Assembly (NCBI GenBank): GCA_025937835.1
Contig: JAICQO010000057.1
Span: 1-44,311, forward strand
Source of the DNA: Polyangiaceae bacterium
GTDB lineage: Bacteria; Myxococcota_A; Polyangia; Polyangiales; Polyangiaceae
DNA length: 44,311 nucleotides
Reading direction: 5' to 3'
Shown here: positions 14,886 to 24,834 of the stretch, piece by piece
Position numbering within the stretch: the stretch's first letter is position 1
How the letters are laid out: every line of letters begins with the position of its first letter
Program-made: the position numbers and the translations under genes
Notes under the pieces: model-generated
What the model was told of the DNA's origin: nothing
Databases searched by the model: none
The model's input: the letters and a program-made list of their open reading frames with translations, nothing else

Positions 14886-15763
14886 CCGAAGCGCGCGGAA
14901 CAGCGGCGCCCGTGCTCAAATGGGCCGGCGGCAAGCGCCAGATCGTCAAGCAGATCCTGGAGCTCTTGCCGACGAAGATTGCCACGTATTACGAACCGTT
15001 CGTGGGCGGCGGAGCGGTGTTCTTCGCGCTCTACAACGAACGCCGGTTCGAGCGCGCCGTGATCGGCGACAAGAACCCCGAGCTCGTCAACGTCTACCAG
15101 GCGCTCAAGCACGACGTCTCGGGCGTGATCCGCGCGCTGAAGAGGCTGAAAGACCAACACTCCGAAGAGCACTACTACAAAGTGCGGGCGACGATTCCGC
15201 GCTCGGAGACGGCGCGCGCGGCGCGCGTGTTGTACCTGAACAAGACCGGCTTCAACGGCCTTTACCGCGTGAACCGCAGCGGCCAGTTCAACGTGCCGTT
15301 CGGCCGCTACGACGCGCCCAAGATCGTGAACGAGCCGCGTCTGAAGGCAGCGGCCGAAGCCCTGGCGAACGTCGAGATCATCAACGAGGATTTCGAGGTG
15401 CTGGCCGCGAAGGCTGGGGTCGGCGACGCCGTCTACTTCGACCCGCCGTACTTGCCCGTCTCGGCGACCGCGGCGTTCGCGGAGTACTACGCCGACCCTT
15501 TCGGAATCGTCGAGCATCGCAAGCTCGCCAAGGTGTTCGACGGGCTGACCCGCAAGGGCATCGCCGCCGTGCTCTCGAACTCCGACACCCCGGTCACCCG
15601 CGGCCTGTTCGAGAAGTATCAGCTTCAGATCGTGTCCGTGTCGGTGCGCCGCGCCATCAACTCGGTGGCCACCCGTCGCGGCGGCGTCGGAGAAATTTTG
15701 GTCACCGCTCAGTCGACGCCGCCCAAGCGCCGCACGGCCGCGGCGCGCCGGCCTTTCGGGTAG
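14882..15763 (+). CDS. D12-class DNA adenine methyltransferase (Dam-like)
   Basis: A 293-residue N6-adenine methylase. It shows the D12 signature KWAGGKRQI at the N-terminus, the SAM-binding motif YYEPFVGGGAVFF (about residues 38-50), the RVNRSGQFNVPFG segment and catalytic DPPY (about residue 186). This order is typical of Dam and DpnM enzymes that methylate GATC, although the target cannot be read from sequence. There is no restriction enzyme or specificity gene nearby, so it is a solitary methylase. GTG 14882 overlaps the stop of the giant activator, implying one operon. Its last 55 bases overlap the convergent FecR-like gene, and the tail there (PPKRRTAAARRPFG) is basic and probably dispensable. 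Confidence 0.92.
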   Translation: MTEARGTAAPVLKWAGGKRQIVKQILELLPTKIATYYEPFVGGGAVFFALYNERRFERAVIGDKNPELVNVYQALKHDVSGVIRALKRLKDQHSEEHYYKVRATIPRSETARAARVLYLNKTGFNGLYRVNRSGQFNVPFGRYDAPKIVNEPRLKAAAEALANVEIINEDFEVLAAKAGVGDAVYFDPPYLPVSATAAFAEYYADPFGIVEHRKLAKVFDGLTRKGIAAVLSNSDTPVTRGLFEKYQLQIVSVSVRRAINSVATRRGGVGEILVTAQSTPPKRRTAAARRPFG

Positions 15764-16821
15764 CGCAACAGATAGCCCCGCGCGCGCTCGCGGGCGAGCT
15801 CGGTCTCACCTGCGCGTGACCAGGCTTCTACCTCGCGCGCCAGGGCGTCTTCGGCCATCGCGCCCTTGGAGTCCAGGCGGCGCGCCGAGGCGAAGGCCTG
15901 AGCGGCTTCACGCGGCCGGCCCAGCTGATCCAACAGCGTCCGTCCGCGCGTGAACTCCGCGAGCGGCGCGCGCGCGTCGCGCGGGAAGCGCTTCACGAGG
16001 CGTTCGAGGAACGCCACTGCGCGATCGGGGCGCCCGCCGAGCCGCGCCGCGTCCGCGGCGAGCAGCAGCTCTTCGGGCAGATCGCGCACGGACTTCGGAC
16101 CTTCTCGATCGATCTCGGCCAGGGCCGCCGCATAGTTGCCGTCTTGCACGAGCGCCCGCCACGGCGAAACCGGTCGCGGTGTAGGCGCCGCAGGTGCAGC
16201 CGACGCAGGCGGCGATTCCGGCTCCGGCTCCGACGCCGGCTGTTCGACGGGGCGTACCTCCCTGAACTGCCCGGTCTCGCCGACCCCGAGCTCCCGATCG
16301 CCGAGCGGCGACGTCACGCGCACGCGACCGCGCTCGACGGAAACGGAGACGCGCTCCGCCTCGCGCGTGACGGTGAACACCGTCCCGAGCACCTGTACGG
16401 TCACGCTGCCCGCCAGCACGCGGAACACGCGCTGCGCGTTGGGGGTGACCGAAAAGCGAGCGCTACCGGAGTCGAGGCGCAGCGTGATCTCCTCGGCCGT
16501 CGACACGACCGGCTCGAGCCGCGCGTTCGCGGAGCGAGCCACCACCTCCGAGCCGTCGGCGAAGTGGATCAGCGGCTGCGGCGCCTGCGGAGCCGTGGTG
16601 GTTGCCACGGGCCGCTCCGGCTCGGACGACCAGCGCTGACCGACGAGCAGCACCACCAACGACACGACCGCGGCCAGCGCCACCACCAGCGCCCCGCGGC
16701 GGCGCCTCCGCGACAGCAGCGAGCGTTCGACGCGCGCGCGCACCCGGCGCTCGCGCTCGGGGGTCCAGCTCGGTTCGACCTGGCGCTTGAGCTCGGCGAG
16801 TCGGGAGACGATGTCAGCCAT
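15709..16821 (-). CDS. FecR-domain membrane protein with TPR-like tail (likely anti-sigma)
   Basis: A 370-residue inner-membrane protein. Basic cytoplasmic residues 1-42 precede a single membrane helix (about 43-62). A periplasmic FecR domain (about 85-200) includes the typical GSARFSVTPNAQRVFRVLAG and VQVLGTVFTV strings. A Pro/Ala-rich linker (about 210-245) and helical repeats like those of outer-membrane TPR proteins follow (about 250-365). Its ATG overlaps the stop of the ECF sigma gene (ATGGCTGA), so the two are coupled. FecR proteins commonly control a partner ECF sigma factor across the membrane, so an anti-sigma role is likely. The 3' end overlaps the adenine methylase gene antisense by 55 bases. 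Confidence 0.82.
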   Translation of the reverse strand: MADIVSRLAELKRQVEPSWTPERERRVRARVERSLLSRRRRRGALVVALAAVVSLVVLLVGQRWSSEPERPVATTTAPQAPQPLIHFADGSEVVARSANARLEPVVSTAEEITLRLDSGSARFSVTPNAQRVFRVLAGSVTVQVLGTVFTVTREAERVSVSVERGRVRVTSPLGDRELGVGETGQFREVRPVEQPASEPEPESPPASAAPAAPTPRPVSPWRALVQDGNYAAALAEIDREGPKSVRDLPEELLLAADAARLGGRPDRAVAFLERLVKRFPRDARAPLAEFTRGRTLLDQLGRPREAAQAFASARRLDSKGAMAEDALAREVEAWSRAGETELARERARGYLLRYPKGRRAAAVRRLGGVD

Positions 16822-17377
16822 CGGCGAACGCCTCCTCGATCACCTGGCTGGCCGCGAGAATGCGGCGCTTGGCGGTGGCGAGCGAGCAGCCCGACAGCGA
16901 CGCGACGCTCTCGAGCGGCTCGCCTTCGATGTTGCGGAGCGCCCAGGCAATCCGCTGGTTGGCGGGCATGCCCTCGAGCACGCGGTACACGCGGGCGAGC
17001 AGCGCTCGCTCCTCGGCCGTGGCCCCCGTGTCCGCCACGCGTTCGTAGACCGCCGGCTCGTCGAAACCGACCAGGCGGCGCAGGCTGCGCTTTCGCAGCC
17101 GCGCCCGCGCAGCGCGCACCGTCACGCGCGCGAGCCAGCCCTTGACGGCGGCCGGATCCCGTAGCTGGCTCACGCCGCGCACGGCCGCGAGGAACACCTC
17201 CTGCACCGTGTCGTCGACGTCGTCGTCCCGGCCGAGCAGGCGATGGGCCACGGCCGCGACGTACGGCGCGTAGCGCCGGAACAAGGTATCCAAGTCGAGC
17301 CCTTCCAGGCTCGTCTCGGGGGCGCTGCCGTCCGCCGCGAGCGGAACGACGCGCAAGGCGGGTTCTCCGCGCGGCAT
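16814..17377 (-). CDS. ECF-type RNA polymerase sigma factor
   Basis: A 187-residue sigma factor of the extracytoplasmic-function group. Region 2 is seen in LFRRYAPYVAAVAHRLLGRD followed by DVDDTVQEVFLAAVRG, and region 4 in LARVYRVLEGMPANQRIAWALR and SLSGCSLATAKRRILAA (HTH). Regions 1 and 3 are missing, as usual. ATG 17377 is preferred because a GAGGGG ribosome site lies six bases upstream; ATG 17416 is the alternative. It overlaps the FecR-like gene, its probable regulator. It is divergent from the aminotransferase-LuxE-LuxC operon across 175 bases, so regulation of that operon is possible but not shown. Confidence 0.9.
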   Translation of the reverse strand: MPRGEPALRVVPLAADGSAPETSLEGLDLDTLFRRYAPYVAAVAHRLLGRDDDVDDTVQEVFLAAVRGVSQLRDPAAVKGWLARVTVRAARARLRKRSLRRLVGFDEPAVYERVADTGATAEERALLARVYRVLEGMPANQRIAWALRNIEGEPLESVASLSGCSLATAKRRILAASQVIEEAFADG

Positions 17378-17552
17378 ACTCCCCCTCAGTGCGCTTCGGT
17401 TCGCCAATCGGCTCATCCTGGCCTCGAATGAGCCGAAAAGCTCGCGCTTTCCCACCGATCGAGCATCGCCGCCACGCTCCCACTCCCACCCCCGCGCTGA
17501 GGGCGCCAACGCCGGATTTGACCGTGCTCCCGCGCGGTTCCAAGCCTCGAGC

Positions 17553-18851
17553 GTGAGCCCTCCCGCCTCCGGCCAGCAACGCCCCGAGCTCCTGGTCCAG
17601 CCCCCTGGCCCGCGTTCCGTCGAGCTCGCCGCGGTCCATGGCGCGGTGTCGGCGCCGATGGGTCCGCCGGAGCGACCAGGGGGCATCGTGCTCAGCCGGG
17701 GGGAGGGCGCCAACGTCTGGGACGTCGACGGCAACCGCTACGTGGACCTCGCCGCCGGCTTCGGCGCGCTGCTGCTCGGGCACGGTCACCCCGCCGTCGT
17801 GAGCGCGGTGCAGCGCCAGAGCGAGCAGCTGTTGCTGGCGCTCGGCGACGTATTCCCCGCCGACGCCAAGGTCGAGCTCCTCGAACGCCTGACCGCGCTC
17901 TATCCGGAGCCCGCGCAGGGCATCATCGCCCAGTCGGGGTCGGACGCCGTGAGCGCCGCGCTCAAGACCGCGCTGCTCGCGACCGGGCGACCCGGCGTGA
18001 TCGCCTTCGGCGGCGCCTACCACGGCCTCGGCTACGGGCCGATGGCGGCGTGTGGTCTGCGCGAGAGCTATCGCGAGCCGTTCGCCGCGCAGGTCGGCCG
18101 GCACGTGCGCTTCGTCCCGTATCCGTGGAGTCCCGTGCTGCTGGCCGAGACGCTGCAGCTCGTCCACGCCGAGCTCGTTCAGGGCACGGCCGGCGCGGTG
18201 CTGGTGGAGCCGATCCTGGGCCGCGGCGGCGTGGTGGTCCCGCCGCCCGAGTTTCTGCCCGAGCTCGCGCGCCTCACGCGCGAACACTCGGCGTTGCTGA
18301 TTGCCGACGAGATCTGGACCGGTCTGGGACGTTGCGGCGAGATGGCGCGCTCTTTCTCGAGCTGCTTGCCCGACCTGATTTGCTTCGGCAAGGGCCTGGG
18401 CGGCGGGTTGCCGCTGAGCGCCGTGATCGGCCGGCGTGAGGTGATGCAAGCCTGGCAACGCCCGAACGAGGTCGTGCACACCGCCACCTTCGCCGGCGCG
18501 CCGCTCGCCTGCCGCGCAGCGCTCGCGACCCTCGACGTGCTCGAGCACGAGCAGCTTCCCGAGCGAGCCCTGTCGCTCGGGGTCGAGCTCGAACAGCGGC
18601 TCGTGACGACGCTCGGCCCGCGCGGCTTCGGCGTGCGCGGTGCCGGCTTGATGCTCGGCATCGACCTCGGACCGCGCCCCGGCGCAGCGGCCACGCTGAT
18701 GGGCGCGCTGCTGCGCCGCGGTTACCTGACGACCACGGGTGGTGGCCAGCGCGAGGTGTTGGTGCTCACCCCGCCGCTGGTCATCGACTCCGAGTTGCTG
18801 CTCGACTTTCCGCTGGCGCTCTCGGCCGCCATCGACGAGGCCGGACTGTGA
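17553..18851 (+). CDS. Class III PLP-dependent aminotransferase
   Basis: A 432-residue fold-type I transaminase related to 4-aminobutyrate and ornithine aminotransferases, which move amino groups onto or off aldehydes distant from a carboxylate. Seen: GANVWDVDGNRYVDLAAGFG near residue 55, SGSDAVSAALKTAL (cofactor phosphate contact), LLIADEIWTGLGRCG (PLP-pyridine Asp), and FGKGLGGGLPLSAVIG with the Schiff-base Lys280. Start is GTG 17553. Its stop overlaps the LuxE-like start (GTGA), so it is the first gene of a three-gene coupled operon. Given its partners make an aldehyde, a role in turning that aldehyde into an amine is a reasonable inference, but substrate and direction are unknown. Confidence 0.88.
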   Translation: MSPPASGQQRPELLVQPPGPRSVELAAVHGAVSAPMGPPERPGGIVLSRGEGANVWDVDGNRYVDLAAGFGALLLGHGHPAVVSAVQRQSEQLLLALGDVFPADAKVELLERLTALYPEPAQGIIAQSGSDAVSAALKTALLATGRPGVIAFGGAYHGLGYGPMAACGLRESYREPFAAQVGRHVRFVPYPWSPVLLAETLQLVHAELVQGTAGAVLVEPILGRGGVVVPPPEFLPELARLTREHSALLIADEIWTGLGRCGEMARSFSSCLPDLICFGKGLGGGLPLSAVIGRREVMQAWQRPNEVVHTATFAGAPLACRAALATLDVLEHEQLPERALSLGVELEQRLVTTLGPRGFGVRGAGLMLGIDLGPRPGAAATLMGALLRRGYLTTTGGGQREVLVLTPPLVIDSELLLDFPLALSAAIDEAGL

Positions 18852-19972
18852 GCCCCTCGGCAGAGCTCGTCCTCGAGTCCGACGCGCTCCATACCCGGGT
18901 TCGCGCCTTCGCACGCGGCGCGCCGGGCGAAGATTTCGAATCGCTGGCGCTCGCGATCGCCCGCTTTCAAGCCCGCTATTCGCCCGGGTTTGCACGCCTC
19001 GTCGGGTCCTCGCCACTCGAGCGGCTCGAGCAGATCCCGTCGGTGCCGACCGAGGCGTTTCGGCTCACGCGCGTGGCCGTTCACGGCGCAGAACAGGACG
19101 TGGCGCGCTTCGTCACGAGCGGCACGACCGGCTCGGAGCGCGGCACCCACGCGTTCCGCACCACCGCCACCTACGCCGAGCTGTCACTCGCGTTCGGACG
19201 GCGCGCGCTGACAGCGCACGGCCGCCGTCCGACCGTGGTGGCCCTGGCTGACCTGCCCGGTGAGCGACCGAGCTCGTCGCTCGGCTTCATGCTCGAGCAC
19301 TTCGCGCGCAATCTCGATGGCCGCGCGCTCGACGGCGGCCCGTTTTTGCCGAGCGCTCCGGATCGCTACCTGTTGCGGGCAAGCGGCGTCGATCGCGAGG
19401 GACTGCGCCGCGCCGCAGCCATCGCGCGCGAACGCAACGAACCGCTGCTCGTGCTCGCCACCTCCTTTGCGCTGGTCGCGCTGCTCGACGGCCTCGGCAG
19501 CGAGCGCTTGGCTCTACCGGCGGGAAGCGCGGTCATGCAGACCGGCGGCTACAAGGGGCGGAGCCGGGAGCTCGACCCCCCGGTCCTGCGCCAGACGCTC
19601 GCCCGTGGCCTCGAAATCCCCGAAAATAGCCTGGTCACCGAGTACGGGATGACCGAGCTCTCGAGCCAGCTCTACGAGGGGACGCTCGATGGCGCCGAGC
19701 TCCGCGCGCCGCCGTGGACGCTGCTCGAGCCGCCGTGGCTGCGCGTGATCCCCGTCGAGCCGGAGACGCTGTCACCCGTCGCGCCCGGCCAGGTCGGGCT
19801 CGCGCGCTTCATCGATCTCGCCAACGTGGACTCGGCGGTCGCGATCCTCACGCGCGATCTGGTCCGCCGGAACGAGCTCGGTATCGAGCTCCTGGGGCGC
19901 GCGCCCGGCGCGCTACCCCGCGGTTGCTCGCTCGCGGTCGAGGCGCTGCTCGAGTCCGGCCGTGAGCGCTGA
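18848..19972 (+). CDS. LuxE-family acyl-protein synthetase
   Basis: A 374-residue member of the LuxE family in the ANL adenylate-forming superfamily. In luminous bacteria LuxE activates a fatty acid with ATP and hands the acyl group to LuxC. The ATP-binding loop is seen as FVTSGTTGSERGTHAF (about residues 88-103) and the adenylation motif as LVTEYGMTELSSQLYEG (about residue 263). A conserved front segment RFQARYSPGFARLVG is also seen. Length matches LuxE. It overlaps the aminotransferase by four bases and the LuxC-like gene by eleven. No luxA, luxB or luxD is nearby, so light production is not implied; a dedicated acid-reducing pathway is. Confidence 0.85.
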   Translation: MSPSAELVLESDALHTRVRAFARGAPGEDFESLALAIARFQARYSPGFARLVGSSPLERLEQIPSVPTEAFRLTRVAVHGAEQDVARFVTSGTTGSERGTHAFRTTATYAELSLAFGRRALTAHGRRPTVVALADLPGERPSSSLGFMLEHFARNLDGRALDGGPFLPSAPDRYLLRASGVDREGLRRAAAIARERNEPLLVLATSFALVALLDGLGSERLALPAGSAVMQTGGYKGRSRELDPPVLRQTLARGLEIPENSLVTEYGMTELSSQLYEGTLDGAELRAPPWTLLEPPWLRVIPVEPETLSPVAPGQVGLARFIDLANVDSAVAILTRDLVRRNELGIELLGRAPGALPRGCSLAVEALLESGRER

Positions 19973-21023
19973 GCTCCGCGCACGGCTCGAGCCGCTGTTC
20001 GCCGCGGCCCGGCGCATCGCCGATCCCGGCGATCCGCTCGGTCAGCGAGCACGCGCGGAGCTGCCGGCACAAACCCGCCTCTCACCCCAGAACGTGGAGC
20101 TCGCGCTGACACGCTGCCTCGAGAGCTCTGCCACCGACGCCGAGCTCGCCTGGTTTTCGGCACGCACACCGAAGAGCGAGCGGAGCCACGTGCTGCTCAG
20201 CGCCAACGTGTTCACGGCGGCCCTCCGCGCGATCGCGACCGGCCTCGTCGCCTCACCCCGCGTGTTCGTACGAGCCTCGCGCCGGGAGCCGAAAATGGCC
20301 GGTCTCCTCGCCGAAGCCGCGCCCGGGTCGTTCGCCCTCATAGAAGAGCTCCGGCCCAGAGCGGGCGATCAGCTCTTCGCTTACGGCTCCGACGCCACGC
20401 TCGACTCGCTGCGGCGAACGTTCACTCCGGGGACGATTCTCCACGCCCACGGCTCGGGCTTCGGTGCGGTGGCCGTCGATGTCAGAACACTCGCGCCGCT
20501 CGAAGAGATCGAGCTCGCACGGGCCCTGTCGTACGACGTCGTGCTCTTCGACCAGCGCGGCTGCCTGAGCCCGCGCGTCGTCTGGTTCCAGGGTGCGATC
20601 GACGGCGCGCGCTCCTTCACGCGCTCCGTAGCCCGAGCGCTCGCAGAGCGGGAACGCGACCTGCCCGCGGGCGAGCTCGGTGCGGAAGAGCGCGCCGAGC
20701 GCGAACGCTGGCGCGCCGCGCTCACCTACGCCGGCCAGGTCGAGCCGGCAGGCGCCGGCTTCGTCGCCCTGCTCGACGGACCGCCGCTCGAGCTACCCGA
20801 GCTCGGCGCTCGCTCGTTGCTCGTCGTCGCCTGCGCCGACGCCGCCGCAGCGGCCCGCCCGCACGCCGCGAAAATCACGACCCACGCGACCCGCGGCTCC
20901 GCCGAATTTTCTGCCGAATTCGCGCGAGCTCTCCCGCGATCGCGCGCCTCGGGCTGGGGCGAGCTCCAGCGCCCCAGCTTCGACGGACCCGTCGATCTGC
21001 GCTCGCTGCCAGAGCTCGGCTGA
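19962..21023 (+). CDS. LuxC-family acyl-CoA/acyl-protein reductase
   Basis: A 353-residue protein of the LuxC (aldehyde-dehydrogenase-like) acyl reductase family, which reduces an acyl thioester to an aldehyde with NADPH. The strongest motif is VVLFDQRGCLSPRVV, with the probable acyl-accepting Cys near residue 200, exactly as in LuxC proteins. A nucleotide-binding stretch appears at HAHGSGFGAVAVD (about residue 165). It is somewhat shorter than marine LuxC (about 480 residues), lacking part of the N-terminus. Start is GTG 19962, inside the end of the luxE-like gene. It ends the operon, seven bases from the convergent DUF4156 lipoprotein gene. Confidence 0.82.
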   Translation: MSAELRARLEPLFAAARRIADPGDPLGQRARAELPAQTRLSPQNVELALTRCLESSATDAELAWFSARTPKSERSHVLLSANVFTAALRAIATGLVASPRVFVRASRREPKMAGLLAEAAPGSFALIEELRPRAGDQLFAYGSDATLDSLRRTFTPGTILHAHGSGFGAVAVDVRTLAPLEEIELARALSYDVVLFDQRGCLSPRVVWFQGAIDGARSFTRSVARALAERERDLPAGELGAEERAERERWRAALTYAGQVEPAGAGFVALLDGPPLELPELGARSLLVVACADAAAAARPHAAKITTHATRGSAEFSAEFARALPRSRASGWGELQRPSFDGPVDLRSLPELG

Positions 21024-21634: not shown

Positions 21635-23500
21635 CTAGCCCACGAGCGGCAGCCGGCGCGGCGCATTCCGGGCGCGCGCGACCACGCTGATCGGCTCGTC
21701 CGACAGCGGTAGTGCCTGATTCTTGGCGTAAACCGGGTGTCGCCCGTGCGTCTTGAACCAGTCGGCGACGGTCGCCGTCATCTTCATCTTCTCGACGATC
21801 TGCCGGAACCCGACGCCCGTGTTGTAAGCGCAGAACGAGATCTCTCCCATCTGCGTGCCGTACGGGATGATGCACATCTCCGTGCGCCGGAAATCGTAGT
21901 TGAACAGATCCTGGAACCACATACCGGCGACGAACAGGAAGCGCCACTCGAACTTTCCGGCGTCGCCCTCGCTCGCACCGACGCGGTCCCCGCTCGCGCC
22001 GATCTGGCTCAGCAATTGGCGAGCGCACTCGATGACGCCGTAGCCTTCGGGCGCCCGCTCCGCTCGAAAATTACGAAGTAGCGACAACCCGAGCGCGATC
22101 TGCGTCTCGAGCCGCGAGCGGCCGCTGTCGGCGATCTCCTGCACGTCGGCGAGCAGCTGCTCCACGTCCAGAAATTCGGCGACCGGCACCATTTGCTTGG
22201 TGCGCTTGTGCACGAGCAGCACCGTGCCGATGCCGCAGTTCGGGTGACAACCGCATTTCAACGCGCCGAAGTCGGCGTGCTCGCCCTGCATCACGTCGAC
22301 CGCGTCGCTGAACGGGTTCATCGCGCTGAGCGGGAACCAGTCGCGCATCGGCTCGGTCTGGCCCAGCTGGTGCGACAGATCGTGAGCCAGGTGGCTCAGC
22401 GTGTAGCGCTGGCGCTTTCGCTGTTCGTCCGAGATGTCCTCGTCGCGCCCCGTGAAGCTCACCGGTTGGAACGAGACCACCGTGACCTTGTCGGCGTTGT
22501 CGACCGCAAACTGGACGATCGGGCCGACCTGGTCGTTGTTCACACCGTTGACGACCGTCACCACCAGCACCACGTCGATGCCGGCGGCGGCCAGGTTCTC
22601 GATCGCGCGCAGCTTCACGTCGAACAGGTTGCCGACCTTGCGGTGGGCATTGGCCTCGTTGGTGACGCCGTCGAATTGCAGATAACACAGCCGGAGACCC
22701 GCCTCTTTGGCGGCCTTGCAGAACTCTGCGTCCTGCGCGAAGCGGATACCGTTGGAGGCGCACTGCACGCAGAAGTAGCCGACTTCCCGCGCGTAGTGGA
22801 TCGCGCGCAGAAAGTGCGGGCTCAGCGTGGGCTCGCCGCCCGAGAATTGAACGCTGAGCTGGCGGCGCGGCTTGATCCCCACCGCGTCGTCCAGGATCTT
22901 CTGCACGTCTTCCCACTCGAGCTCGTGGACGAAGCCGACCTGGTTTGCGTCCATGAAGCACGGATCGCACATCATGTTGCAGCGGTTGGTCAGATCCACG
23001 GTCAGCACCGAGCCGCGGCCGTATTTGATCGTCGAGCTGCCGTGGTCGCGCAGCTTGCTCGGCGGCGACTCGAAGTCCCTGCCCGGGAACAGCCGCTCGA
23101 TCCTGCCGAGGAACGCAGGGTCCATGCTGATCACGTCTTCGAACTCACCGTGCACGGGGCAGCGCTTGTGCATCACCACGCGCCCGTCTCGCTCCACGAT
23201 CTGCGCTTTGATTTCCCCGGGGTGATCCTGGAGGAACTCGCGCAGGTCCGTCTCTCCCCGCAACACCTTGGCCCGCGTCTCCTTCACGCACTCCGGGCAC
23301 AGGGAGTCCGTGCTCCTCGGCCAACCGAGCGGCGGCGACGTGCGCTGCGCCTTCCTTTGCAACGGACCTGGCGCCCAGCTCGGCTCGAGCGGGGGCCGCG
23401 AAAACCGCTCCGAGTAAGCTCGCCAGACCGGCCAGGCAAAACGTGCCGCGGCGCTCAGCGCCTCGCCGATGACGGAGCGATTCAGATTAAGCAAGTTCAC
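21635..23500 (-). CDS. Radical SAM protein of the MJ0619/Tes (tetraether synthase)-like family
   Basis: About 620 residues. A front iron-binding unit is seen: SLCPECVKETRA followed by MHKRCPVHGEFEDV, the CPxC...CPxHG arrangement of MJ0619/Tes proteins. The radical SAM core carries CNMMCDPC (the CxxxCxxC cluster ligands) and QFSGGEPTLSPHF for SAM. A later FGALKCGCHPNCGIGTVLLV suggests extra iron-sulfur clusters. Archaeal Tes joins two lipid tails to make tetraethers; bacterial relatives are suspected to build ether or membrane-spanning lipids, so a lipid role is inferred here. The start is uncertain: GTG 23500 is used because residues upstream are unlike the family. There are no neighbouring lipid genes. 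Confidence 0.72.
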   Translation of the reverse strand: MNLLNLNRSVIGEALSAAARFAWPVWRAYSERFSRPPLEPSWAPGPLQRKAQRTSPPLGWPRSTDSLCPECVKETRAKVLRGETDLREFLQDHPGEIKAQIVERDGRVVMHKRCPVHGEFEDVISMDPAFLGRIERLFPGRDFESPPSKLRDHGSSTIKYGRGSVLTVDLTNRCNMMCDPCFMDANQVGFVHELEWEDVQKILDDAVGIKPRRQLSVQFSGGEPTLSPHFLRAIHYAREVGYFCVQCASNGIRFAQDAEFCKAAKEAGLRLCYLQFDGVTNEANAHRKVGNLFDVKLRAIENLAAAGIDVVLVVTVVNGVNNDQVGPIVQFAVDNADKVTVVSFQPVSFTGRDEDISDEQRKRQRYTLSHLAHDLSHQLGQTEPMRDWFPLSAMNPFSDAVDVMQGEHADFGALKCGCHPNCGIGTVLLVHKRTKQMVPVAEFLDVEQLLADVQEIADSGRSRLETQIALGLSLLRNFRAERAPEGYGVIECARQLLSQIGASGDRVGASEGDAGKFEWRFLFVAGMWFQDLFNYDFRRTEMCIIPYGTQMGEISFCAYNTGVGFRQIVEKMKMTATVADWFKTHGRHPVYAKNQALPLSDEPISVVARARNAPRRLPLVG

Positions 23501-23667
23501 GCGGCCGCTAGCATATACGAGCCGTCGCGACCGCGGGGCTCGCCAGCCGAAGATCGCAAAACCCCCCAGTCGACATCGACCCGCGGGCCAGTCGGGGCTC
23601 GGCGACGAGGATCGTCGCGCGGCGGCCCCGAACATGCCAAAGGATCGAGCGGCGCAGACCCCGAACC

Positions 23668-24834
23668 TTGGCACCTTCCTTCATCGTCTTGAGCGACCTG
23701 CACCTCTCGCACGGCGGCTCACGGTCGCTGGCACAGGATTGCGCCGCTTTGATCCAGGCTCACGCCGGCACGGAAATCGTGATCGCTGGCGACGCCTTCT
23801 CGCTCTCGAGCGATCCGGGCGAGCGCGACCCGGTCGAATCCGTGACCACGCTCGTGAAGAGCGAACCGCGCCTGGTTGCAGCGCTTCGCGCGCACCTCGC
23901 GGCGGGGTCGAAGCTCACGCTGCTCGCGGGCAACCACGACGCGGCCGTCGCCGACCCGCGAACCCGCGCCGGGCTGCTGTCTGCGCTCGAGCTCCAGGAA
24001 CACGCTCCGCTCGCGCTCGAACCCTGGTTCATCCGCCGCGGCCAGGTCCACGTCGAGCACGGCCACCTCTGGGATCCGGACAACGCACCGGCGCATCCGC
24101 TCTCGAGTTGGAGCGGCCGCACCGAGCCGCTCGGCATCGCGCTGACGCGCCGCTTCATCGCCCGCTACGGCGTCTGGCAGTTCGCGCACGCGCACGAGAC
24201 CACGGTCGCTGGCGGCCTTTCGCGCGCGTTCAATCTCTTCGGCCCGCGCGCGCCGCTGCTGATCGCACGCTACTTCCTGAGCTCGGGCAGGTTGTGCGCC
24301 GAGAGCCTGTTCGAACGCGGCCTCGCTGACGAGCGAGCGCGCGGCCAGGCCGAGCTCGAGGAGCTGTCGGCGCAGAGCGGCGTCGATGCCGCGGCGCTCG
24401 CTGCGCTGGTCGCGGCCGCGCCCGAGCCCACCCACCTACGCTTTCGAAATTTGTTTCTGCGCCTCTACTACGATCGCGTCTTCGCCTCGCTCGCCCTCGG
24501 CGCTGGCCTATTCGGCGTCGCGCTCGCCGCGTCACCGCTCAGCGCCGCCGTCGCGGTCGGCTCGGGCGCCTACCTCGGCTGGAACGTGCGCCACTCAGGC
24601 TCGCGCTACCAGAACCGCCCGATCCAGCGCTTGCGCGAAGGCGCTGAAATCGTGCGGCGATTCACCGACGCCGGCCTGGTCGTGTTCGGGCACACGCACG
24701 TGCCGGAGCACGCCGCGGGCTACGCGAACCCGGGCTCGTTCGGCTACCCGGCGCCGGGCACGGGCCGGCCGTTCCTCAGCGTCGACGCGGACGGAAACGC
24801 CAGGCTCGAGGCCTGGCCGCTCAAGGCCGGATGA
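23668..24834 (+). CDS. Calcineurin-like metallophosphoesterase with C-terminal membrane pair
   Basis: A 388-residue phosphoesterase. All five metal motifs are present in order: VLSDLHLSH near the start, IAGDAFSL, LAGNHDAA, VEHGHLWD and, near the C-terminus, VFGHTHVPE. The two halves of the active site are split by a long insert (about residues 150-330) that includes a hydrophobic pair of helices (VFASLALGAGLFGVALAA and the next AAVAVGSGAYLG). It may therefore sit on the membrane and act on a lipid or nucleotide phosphate, somewhat like LpxH, but the substrate is unknown. The start appears to be TTG 23668 with no clear ribosome site. It is divergent from the radical SAM gene and ends 14 bases into lolA. 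Confidence 0.78.
   Translation: MAPSFIVLSDLHLSHGGSRSLAQDCAALIQAHAGTEIVIAGDAFSLSSDPGERDPVESVTTLVKSEPRLVAALRAHLAAGSKLTLLAGNHDAAVADPRTRAGLLSALELQEHAPLALEPWFIRRGQVHVEHGHLWDPDNAPAHPLSSWSGRTEPLGIALTRRFIARYGVWQFAHAHETTVAGGLSRAFNLFGPRAPLLIARYFLSSGRLCAESLFERGLADERARGQAELEELSAQSGVDAAALAALVAAAPEPTHLRFRNLFLRLYYDRVFASLALGAGLFGVALAASPLSAAVAVGSGAYLGWNVRHSGSRYQNRPIQRLREGAEIVRRFTDAGLVVFGHTHVPEHAAGYANPGSFGYPAPGTGRPFLSVDADGNARLEAWPLKAG

Follow-up and report, generated by a model that had tools for sequence, protein, structure and literature searches.

A conserved aminotransferase-LuxE-LuxC operon in Polyangiaceae and its relatives: a candidate acid-to-amine pathway

In a contig of a Polyangiaceae bacterium (JAICQO010000057.1, assembly GCA_025937835.1; 44,311 nt, the whole stretch being referred to here as the window), three overlapping genes encode a class III aminotransferase (AT), a LuxE-type acyl-activating enzyme and a LuxC-type acyl reductase. 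The pathway that these three genes represent is real and deeply conserved, and most likely it turns a carboxylic acid into a primary amine; it appears probable that this route of reductive amination, from acid via aldehyde to amine, is self-contained. According to our proposal, LuxE would adenylate a carboxylic acid with ATP and take the acyl group onto its C-terminal Cys360, from where it would be passed to Cys201 of LuxC. LuxC would then use NAD(P)H to reduce the acyl group to the aldehyde, probably inside a LuxC-LuxE complex, and the AT would turn the aldehyde into the primary amine. The direction of flow, the direct acyl transfer and the aldehyde as substrate of the AT are steps that we infer. 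For the acid, both an aryl type and a hydrophobic acyl chain are possible.

The enzyme families named from the sequence alone were recovered by Pfam, with all matches above the gathering cut-offs. The genes, and all features given below for them, lie on the plus strand: the AT at 17553..18851 (432 aa; fold type I, dependent on pyridoxal phosphate (PLP); Aminotran_3, 7.9e-85), the LuxE-type ATP-dependent acyl-activating enzyme or acyl-protein synthetase at 18848..19972 (374 aa; PF04443, 1.5e-6) and the compact LuxC-type reductase at 19962..21023 (353 aa; PF05893, 4e-15). AT and LuxE overlap by 4 bp, LuxE and LuxC by 11 bp. The start codon of the AT is uncertain, a conserved PGPRS motif near the N terminus favouring a start near 17553. 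Since the Pfam matches cover only the C-terminal part of LuxE and the central part of LuxC, relatives were collected, alignments of all three proteins were built and the Protein Data Bank (PDB) was searched.

Conservation and co-occurrence of the three genes

Order, family, genus, class and phylum refer throughout to those of the window genome, the phylum being the myxobacteria and their kin. LuxE was found in 101 of 107 sampled genomes of the host order and in 130 of 150 genomes from other classes of the phylum, where some matches are weak; in the sister orders of the same class only seven of 134 genomes had a match, all of them weak. LuxC is present once per genome in 53 of 59 relatives. As for the arrangement, 45 host-order loci hold all three genes: AT and LuxE are contiguous in 42 of them, and in 44 LuxE is either contiguous with LuxC or fused to it, the exception having a gap of 410 bp. 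The order AT-LuxE-LuxC with 4-bp overlaps is kept in the host order, and the same order recurs across many families of other classes, as the sequence-only reading had suggested looking for. Conservation across families and classes excludes a chance adjacency of the three genes. In two loci LuxE and LuxC form one protein of about 745 aa (L048, 8051-10282, plus strand; L054, 297-2531, plus strand).

Clustering of the neighbours in about 90 loci revealed no constant fourth gene, and the module thus seems to consist of just three genes. Since nearly every genome of the order has them in single copy, their product may well be a basic constituent of the cell and not an occasional secondary metabolite.

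A second line of evidence comes from genomes in which the genes are not adjacent. For this test, 60 genomes were chosen according to the status and position of LuxE, after which AT and LuxC were scored in them. In the LuxE-positive genomes the AT was found in 25 of 26 and LuxC in all 26; the AT occurred in three of the 34 LuxE-negative genomes (Fisher p 1.5e-12, nominal). Leaving out genomes with adjacent AT and LuxE, the AT is present in 14 of 15 LuxE-positive versus three of 34 LuxE-negative genomes (nominal p 1.4e-8). In the three LuxE-negative genomes with an AT (G004, G024 and G245) this gene is either truncated by the end of its contig or stops no more than about 50 bp short of it, so that LuxE probably lies in an assembly gap there; a further truncated operon-type AT was seen in G059, a genome that is 74% complete. 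The only LuxE-positive genome lacking the AT, G368, has its LuxE-LuxC pair in a different, aconitase-type operon with a flavoprotein. Independence of the genes in relatives had been named beforehand as an observation that would tell against a joint pathway; the genes are sometimes unlinked, yet they are kept together in the genome.

That some families have LuxE-LuxC without an adjoining AT would suit another reading, in which the fatty aldehyde made by the pair goes into alcohols or ether lipids, the AT being an ordinary amino-acid transaminase that has no more than the operon in common with them. These families still carry the AT clade elsewhere in the genome, and the active site of the AT is unique and not of the amino-acid kind (see below), for which reasons we regard this reading as very improbable.

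An aminotransferase clade with a remodelled active site

In a comparison with 20 paralogs from the phylum, all operon-type ATs, whether linked or unlinked, group as a single clade (support 100/99). Lys280 in GKGLGGG (18390..18392), the predicted Schiff-base lysine for PLP, and the PLP aspartate D252 are both invariant in 88 of 88 operon-type ATs, and position 70 is always F. Four positions that we presume, from E. coli gamma-aminobutyric acid (GABA) aminotransferase, to contact the substrate carboxylate or the cofactor are changed throughout the clade; 159 and 404 are taken to correspond to R141 and R398 in the numbering of that enzyme. Leu159 (18027..18029), aligned with an R of PuuE and GabT, replaces the substrate-carboxylate arginine (L in 83 and M in five of 88; R in 17/20 paralogs). 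Arg224 (18222..18224) stands in place of the gateway glutamate, turning EPxxGE into EPxxGR (R in 88/88; E in 18/20 paralogs), and Trp255 (18315..18317) in place of the PLP-contacting glutamine, turning DEVQ into DEIW (W, Y, F, L or M in 85/88, mostly W, Y or F; Q in 18/20 paralogs). At the second carboxylate arginine there is Val404 (18762..18764), this position never being R in the 86 rows with a letter (R in 18/20 paralogs). The pocket therefore appears to have changed from one for dicarboxylic amino acids to one for a substrate of hydrophobic or aromatic character, which is what an AT that takes its aldehyde from LuxC would be expected to show.

Specificity for an ordinary amino acid was the objection that the sequence-only reading had raised against itself. 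In NCBIfam the AT scores 244 bits for argD (cut-off 410), 236 for GABA transaminase (cut-off 507) and 213 for PigE (cut-off 850), and it also stays far under the cut-off for putrescine aminotransferase. The window genome has a separate argD that reaches 447 bits and thus exceeds the cut-off. This separate argD and the loss of the carboxylate-binding residues make an ordinary transaminase of amino acids unlikely. The cut-offs, the clade and the residues of the active site all place the AT outside the acetylornithine, ornithine and GABA groups, and an acetylornithine or ornithine transaminase was rejected.

Two further functions of the AT were weighed. As the AT is the first gene of the operon and omega- or beta-amino acids are among the possible products of class III enzymes, it might act before LuxE, making an amino acid from which LuxE and LuxC would produce an amino aldehyde. 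To make an amino acid, the enzyme should require one of the carboxylate-binding positions, which are lost in all operon-type ATs, and we consider this order of events unlikely. Somewhat less probable still is that the AT has the class III fold but works beside LuxE-LuxC as a racemase, epimerase or aminomutase. The top PDB match of the AT profile is indeed a class III broad-specificity amino-acid racemase, but the scores of many class III subfamilies lie only a few bits apart, and the racemase has retained R at position 398 and GD at position 211, both of which the AT clade is without.

Several points weigh against the acid-to-amine pathway as proposed. The arginine that usually binds the glutamate donor is lost in the AT, which leaves the amino donor unexplained; Arg224 could be a candidate substitute for binding it. 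No downstream amine-consuming gene was found linked to the operon among the neighbours in the roughly 90 loci. Nor are the genes physically coupled throughout, since several families encode the AT, or LuxC, at another place in the genome. The co-occurrence p values are optimistic because the sampled genomes, chosen by LuxE status, are related by descent.

LuxE, LuxC and the nature of the acid

The window LuxE and LuxC have diverged from their luminous counterparts, with their catalytic residues intact. The TSGTTGSERG and QRGCLSP motifs on which the sequence-only reading had relied are both present. In the TSGTTG adenylation loop of LuxE (residues 90-95; 19115..19132), S91 and G92 are invariant and T93 is found in 90 of 91 relatives. 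The predicted acyl-accepting Cys360 in RGCS (19925..19927) is invariant (91/91) and aligns with KGCSL of chain E in the solved Photobacterium LuxC-LuxE complex, 7xc6; the predicted thioester cysteine of LuxC, Cys201 in QRGCLSP (20562..20564), is conserved in 87 of 87 rows with a letter and aligns with YDQQACFS of chain A. Profiles built from the relatives match these chains at 9.8e-27 (LuxE) and 1.2e-20 (LuxC), in both cases with the catalytic cysteines aligned. An AlphaFold2 model of LuxC (mean pLDDT 92.6) has 7xc6_A as top PDB match (Z 30.7, 338 residues). For the LuxE model (pLDDT 88.9) the closest folds are PaaK-type ANL ligases and aryl-acid AMP-ligases (Z 24); 7xc6_E is missing from the VIA-align list for this model though it is the best sequence match, and its absence there is uninformative.

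A bioluminescence role was rejected. LuxD, which supplies the fatty acid in luminous bacteria, was not found by a search of the window genome with PF02273, the same search being positive in G189, which has a luxD-like gene. The earlier statement that luxA, luxB and luxD are all absent thus stands for luxD; for luxA and luxB it applies to the locus but is unproven for the genome as a whole, because three PF00296 (luciferase-like) proteins are encoded on other contigs, none of them linked to the operon.

In the LuxE tree we found four kinds that follow the partner gene: the AT type, an aconitase/flavoprotein type (L097, L116 and L119), a type with a short-chain dehydrogenase/reductase (SDR) on plasmids, and the luminous LuxE together with that of L126. 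The luminous and L126 proteins pair (100/99), away from the AT type and on long branches. AT-type LuxE is one group in 82% of bootstrap trees, with some branches long and the deep forks weak. This division by partner gene points to LuxE-LuxC as an exchangeable carboxylic-acid-reductase unit in which the downstream enzyme decides the product, and with the AT-type clade apart from the luminous one, the acid substrate cannot be read from luminous LuxE.

The other operon types deserve mention in their own right. In L116 (8405-13825, minus strand), and likewise in L097 and L119, LuxE and LuxC share an operon with a pyridine-nucleotide flavoprotein and with both subunits, large and small, of an aconitase-like protein, which looks like another undescribed use of the unit. 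L126 (6655-12659, minus strand) carries a cluster of luxD-like, luxC and luxE genes without an AT, adjoining a protein whose class II tRNA-synthetase core domain resembles that of prolyl-tRNA synthetase. Outside the phylum, where organisms were sampled through plasmids only, LuxE-LuxC-SDR operons with ABC or SLC23 transporters occur in Azospirillum, Pantoea, Priestia and Lactiplantibacillus (L146-L149); their gene content suggests uptake of an acid and its reduction to an alcohol. They share with the window locus a LuxE-LuxC pair outside bioluminescence, and differ in having an SDR, often with a transporter, instead of the AT, a full-length LuxC and a LuxE of a separate clade.

Which acid enters the pathway divides two readings of the same enzymology. 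In the first, free long-chain fatty acid would be converted via fatty aldehyde to a fatty amine, serving as lipid part or signal. Fatty acids are what the one LuxE-LuxC pair of known biochemistry reduces (title of 7xc6), the AT pocket is hydrophobic or aromatic at F70, L159 and W255, and TamH of tambjamine synthesis, a transaminase of the same broad class, accepts C7-C14 aldehydes (PMC9594044). On the other side stand the separate clade of AT-type LuxE, the resemblance of its model to PaaK and aryl-acid ligases, the absence of LuxD, and the transporters and SDR next to LuxE relatives outside the phylum, which suggest other acids. We judge the fatty route a possibility of roughly one in three. 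Hardly less plausible, though again tentative, is a small, aryl or heterocyclic acid leading to a small amine for a cofactor, a polyamine or a wall component. This would agree with the PaaK-like fold of LuxE, with the transporters and SDR or the aconitase-like genes and flavoprotein of the other operon types, and with the lack of a constantly linked lipid gene. Nor does the AT type show constant linkage to a transporter gene or a small-molecule gene, and the fold match mirrors the superfamily, not the substrate. Of the fatty-amine pathway originally put forward, the acid-to-amine part is thus well supported by the deep conservation of the trio, the LuxE-LuxC fusions, the matching presence and absence of the AT even when unlinked and the residue losses in the AT; that the amine is fatty is not established.

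Related systems, neighbouring genes and biological meaning

The locus resembles the luminous fatty acid reductase (7xc6) in having both enzymes, both catalytic cysteines, the adenylation loop, an aldehyde dehydrogenase-like LuxC fold and tight pairing of the genes. It differs in that LuxD is missing, LuxC is about 120 aa shorter (353 versus 477 aa in Photobacterium), LuxE forms a separate clade and an AT takes the place of luciferase. The same chemical logic is found in tambjamine synthesis, where TamA and TamH convert a fatty acid to an amine by activation, reduction and class III transamination (PMC9594044), and in PigE. In TamH and PigE, however, the transaminase is fused to a thioester reductase and the genes sit in natural-product clusters, TamH working with an acyl-carrier protein, whereas the operon described here has a stand-alone AT of 432 aa, a LuxC reductase, a LuxE activator and no carrier protein, and belongs to the common genome of the order. 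Within the myxobacteria, myxochelin is made by reductive release, MxcL then transaminating the aldehyde to a primary amine (PMC9611931); this involves a thioester bound to a nonribosomal peptide synthetase (NRPS), an NRPS reductase domain and a siderophore cluster of some strains. Non-luminous LuxE and LuxC genes, and aminotransferases, also occur in flagellin glycosylation islands (PMC7874193, PMC4875605), which are separate and variable and contain an acyl-carrier protein, a ketoacyl reductase, an AMP-dependent synthetase and glycosyltransferases.

Several genes next to the operon were rejected as accessory partners, being local neighbours only: an FHA-GGDEF gene in the family, a gene that we read as SseB-like in other families and a Tes-like radical SAM gene in the genus. 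The first encodes a diguanylate cyclase-like protein directly upstream of the AT in L041 (13195-14097, minus strand) and about 20 other loci of the family, and is possibly a regulatory link. In the window, an extracytoplasmic function (ECF) sigma factor and a FecR/TPR protein (15709-17734, minus strand) are divergent from the operon. The radical SAM protein at 21635-23674 (minus strand) is a Tes-like enzyme in a bacterium, scoring 338 bits against the tetraether lipid synthase Tes model and thus under its cut-off of 450. Its gene and a phosphoesterase adjoin the operon in most genomes of the genus, and a LolA-like gene does so in some.

The kinds of enzyme are known; new are their combination, their core-genome status and the product. 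A literature search, which covered few subscription journals, yielded no paper joining LuxC, LuxE and myxobacteria and none on this operon, and nothing relevant on a fatty amine or aminolipid in myxobacteria. Whether the near-universal, single-copy and carrier-protein-free line of LuxE, LuxC and transaminase, in the order and in many other classes of the phylum, yields a basically important primary amine, be it a lipid amine or a cofactor or wall component, seems to us evenly balanced. If the proposed pathway is correct, the reducing half of the bioluminescence system would have a second, widespread role in the opening steps of amine synthesis, the three proteins would constitute a ready acid-to-amine biocatalyst that needs no carrier protein, and a large bacterial phylum would share an undescribed core metabolite.

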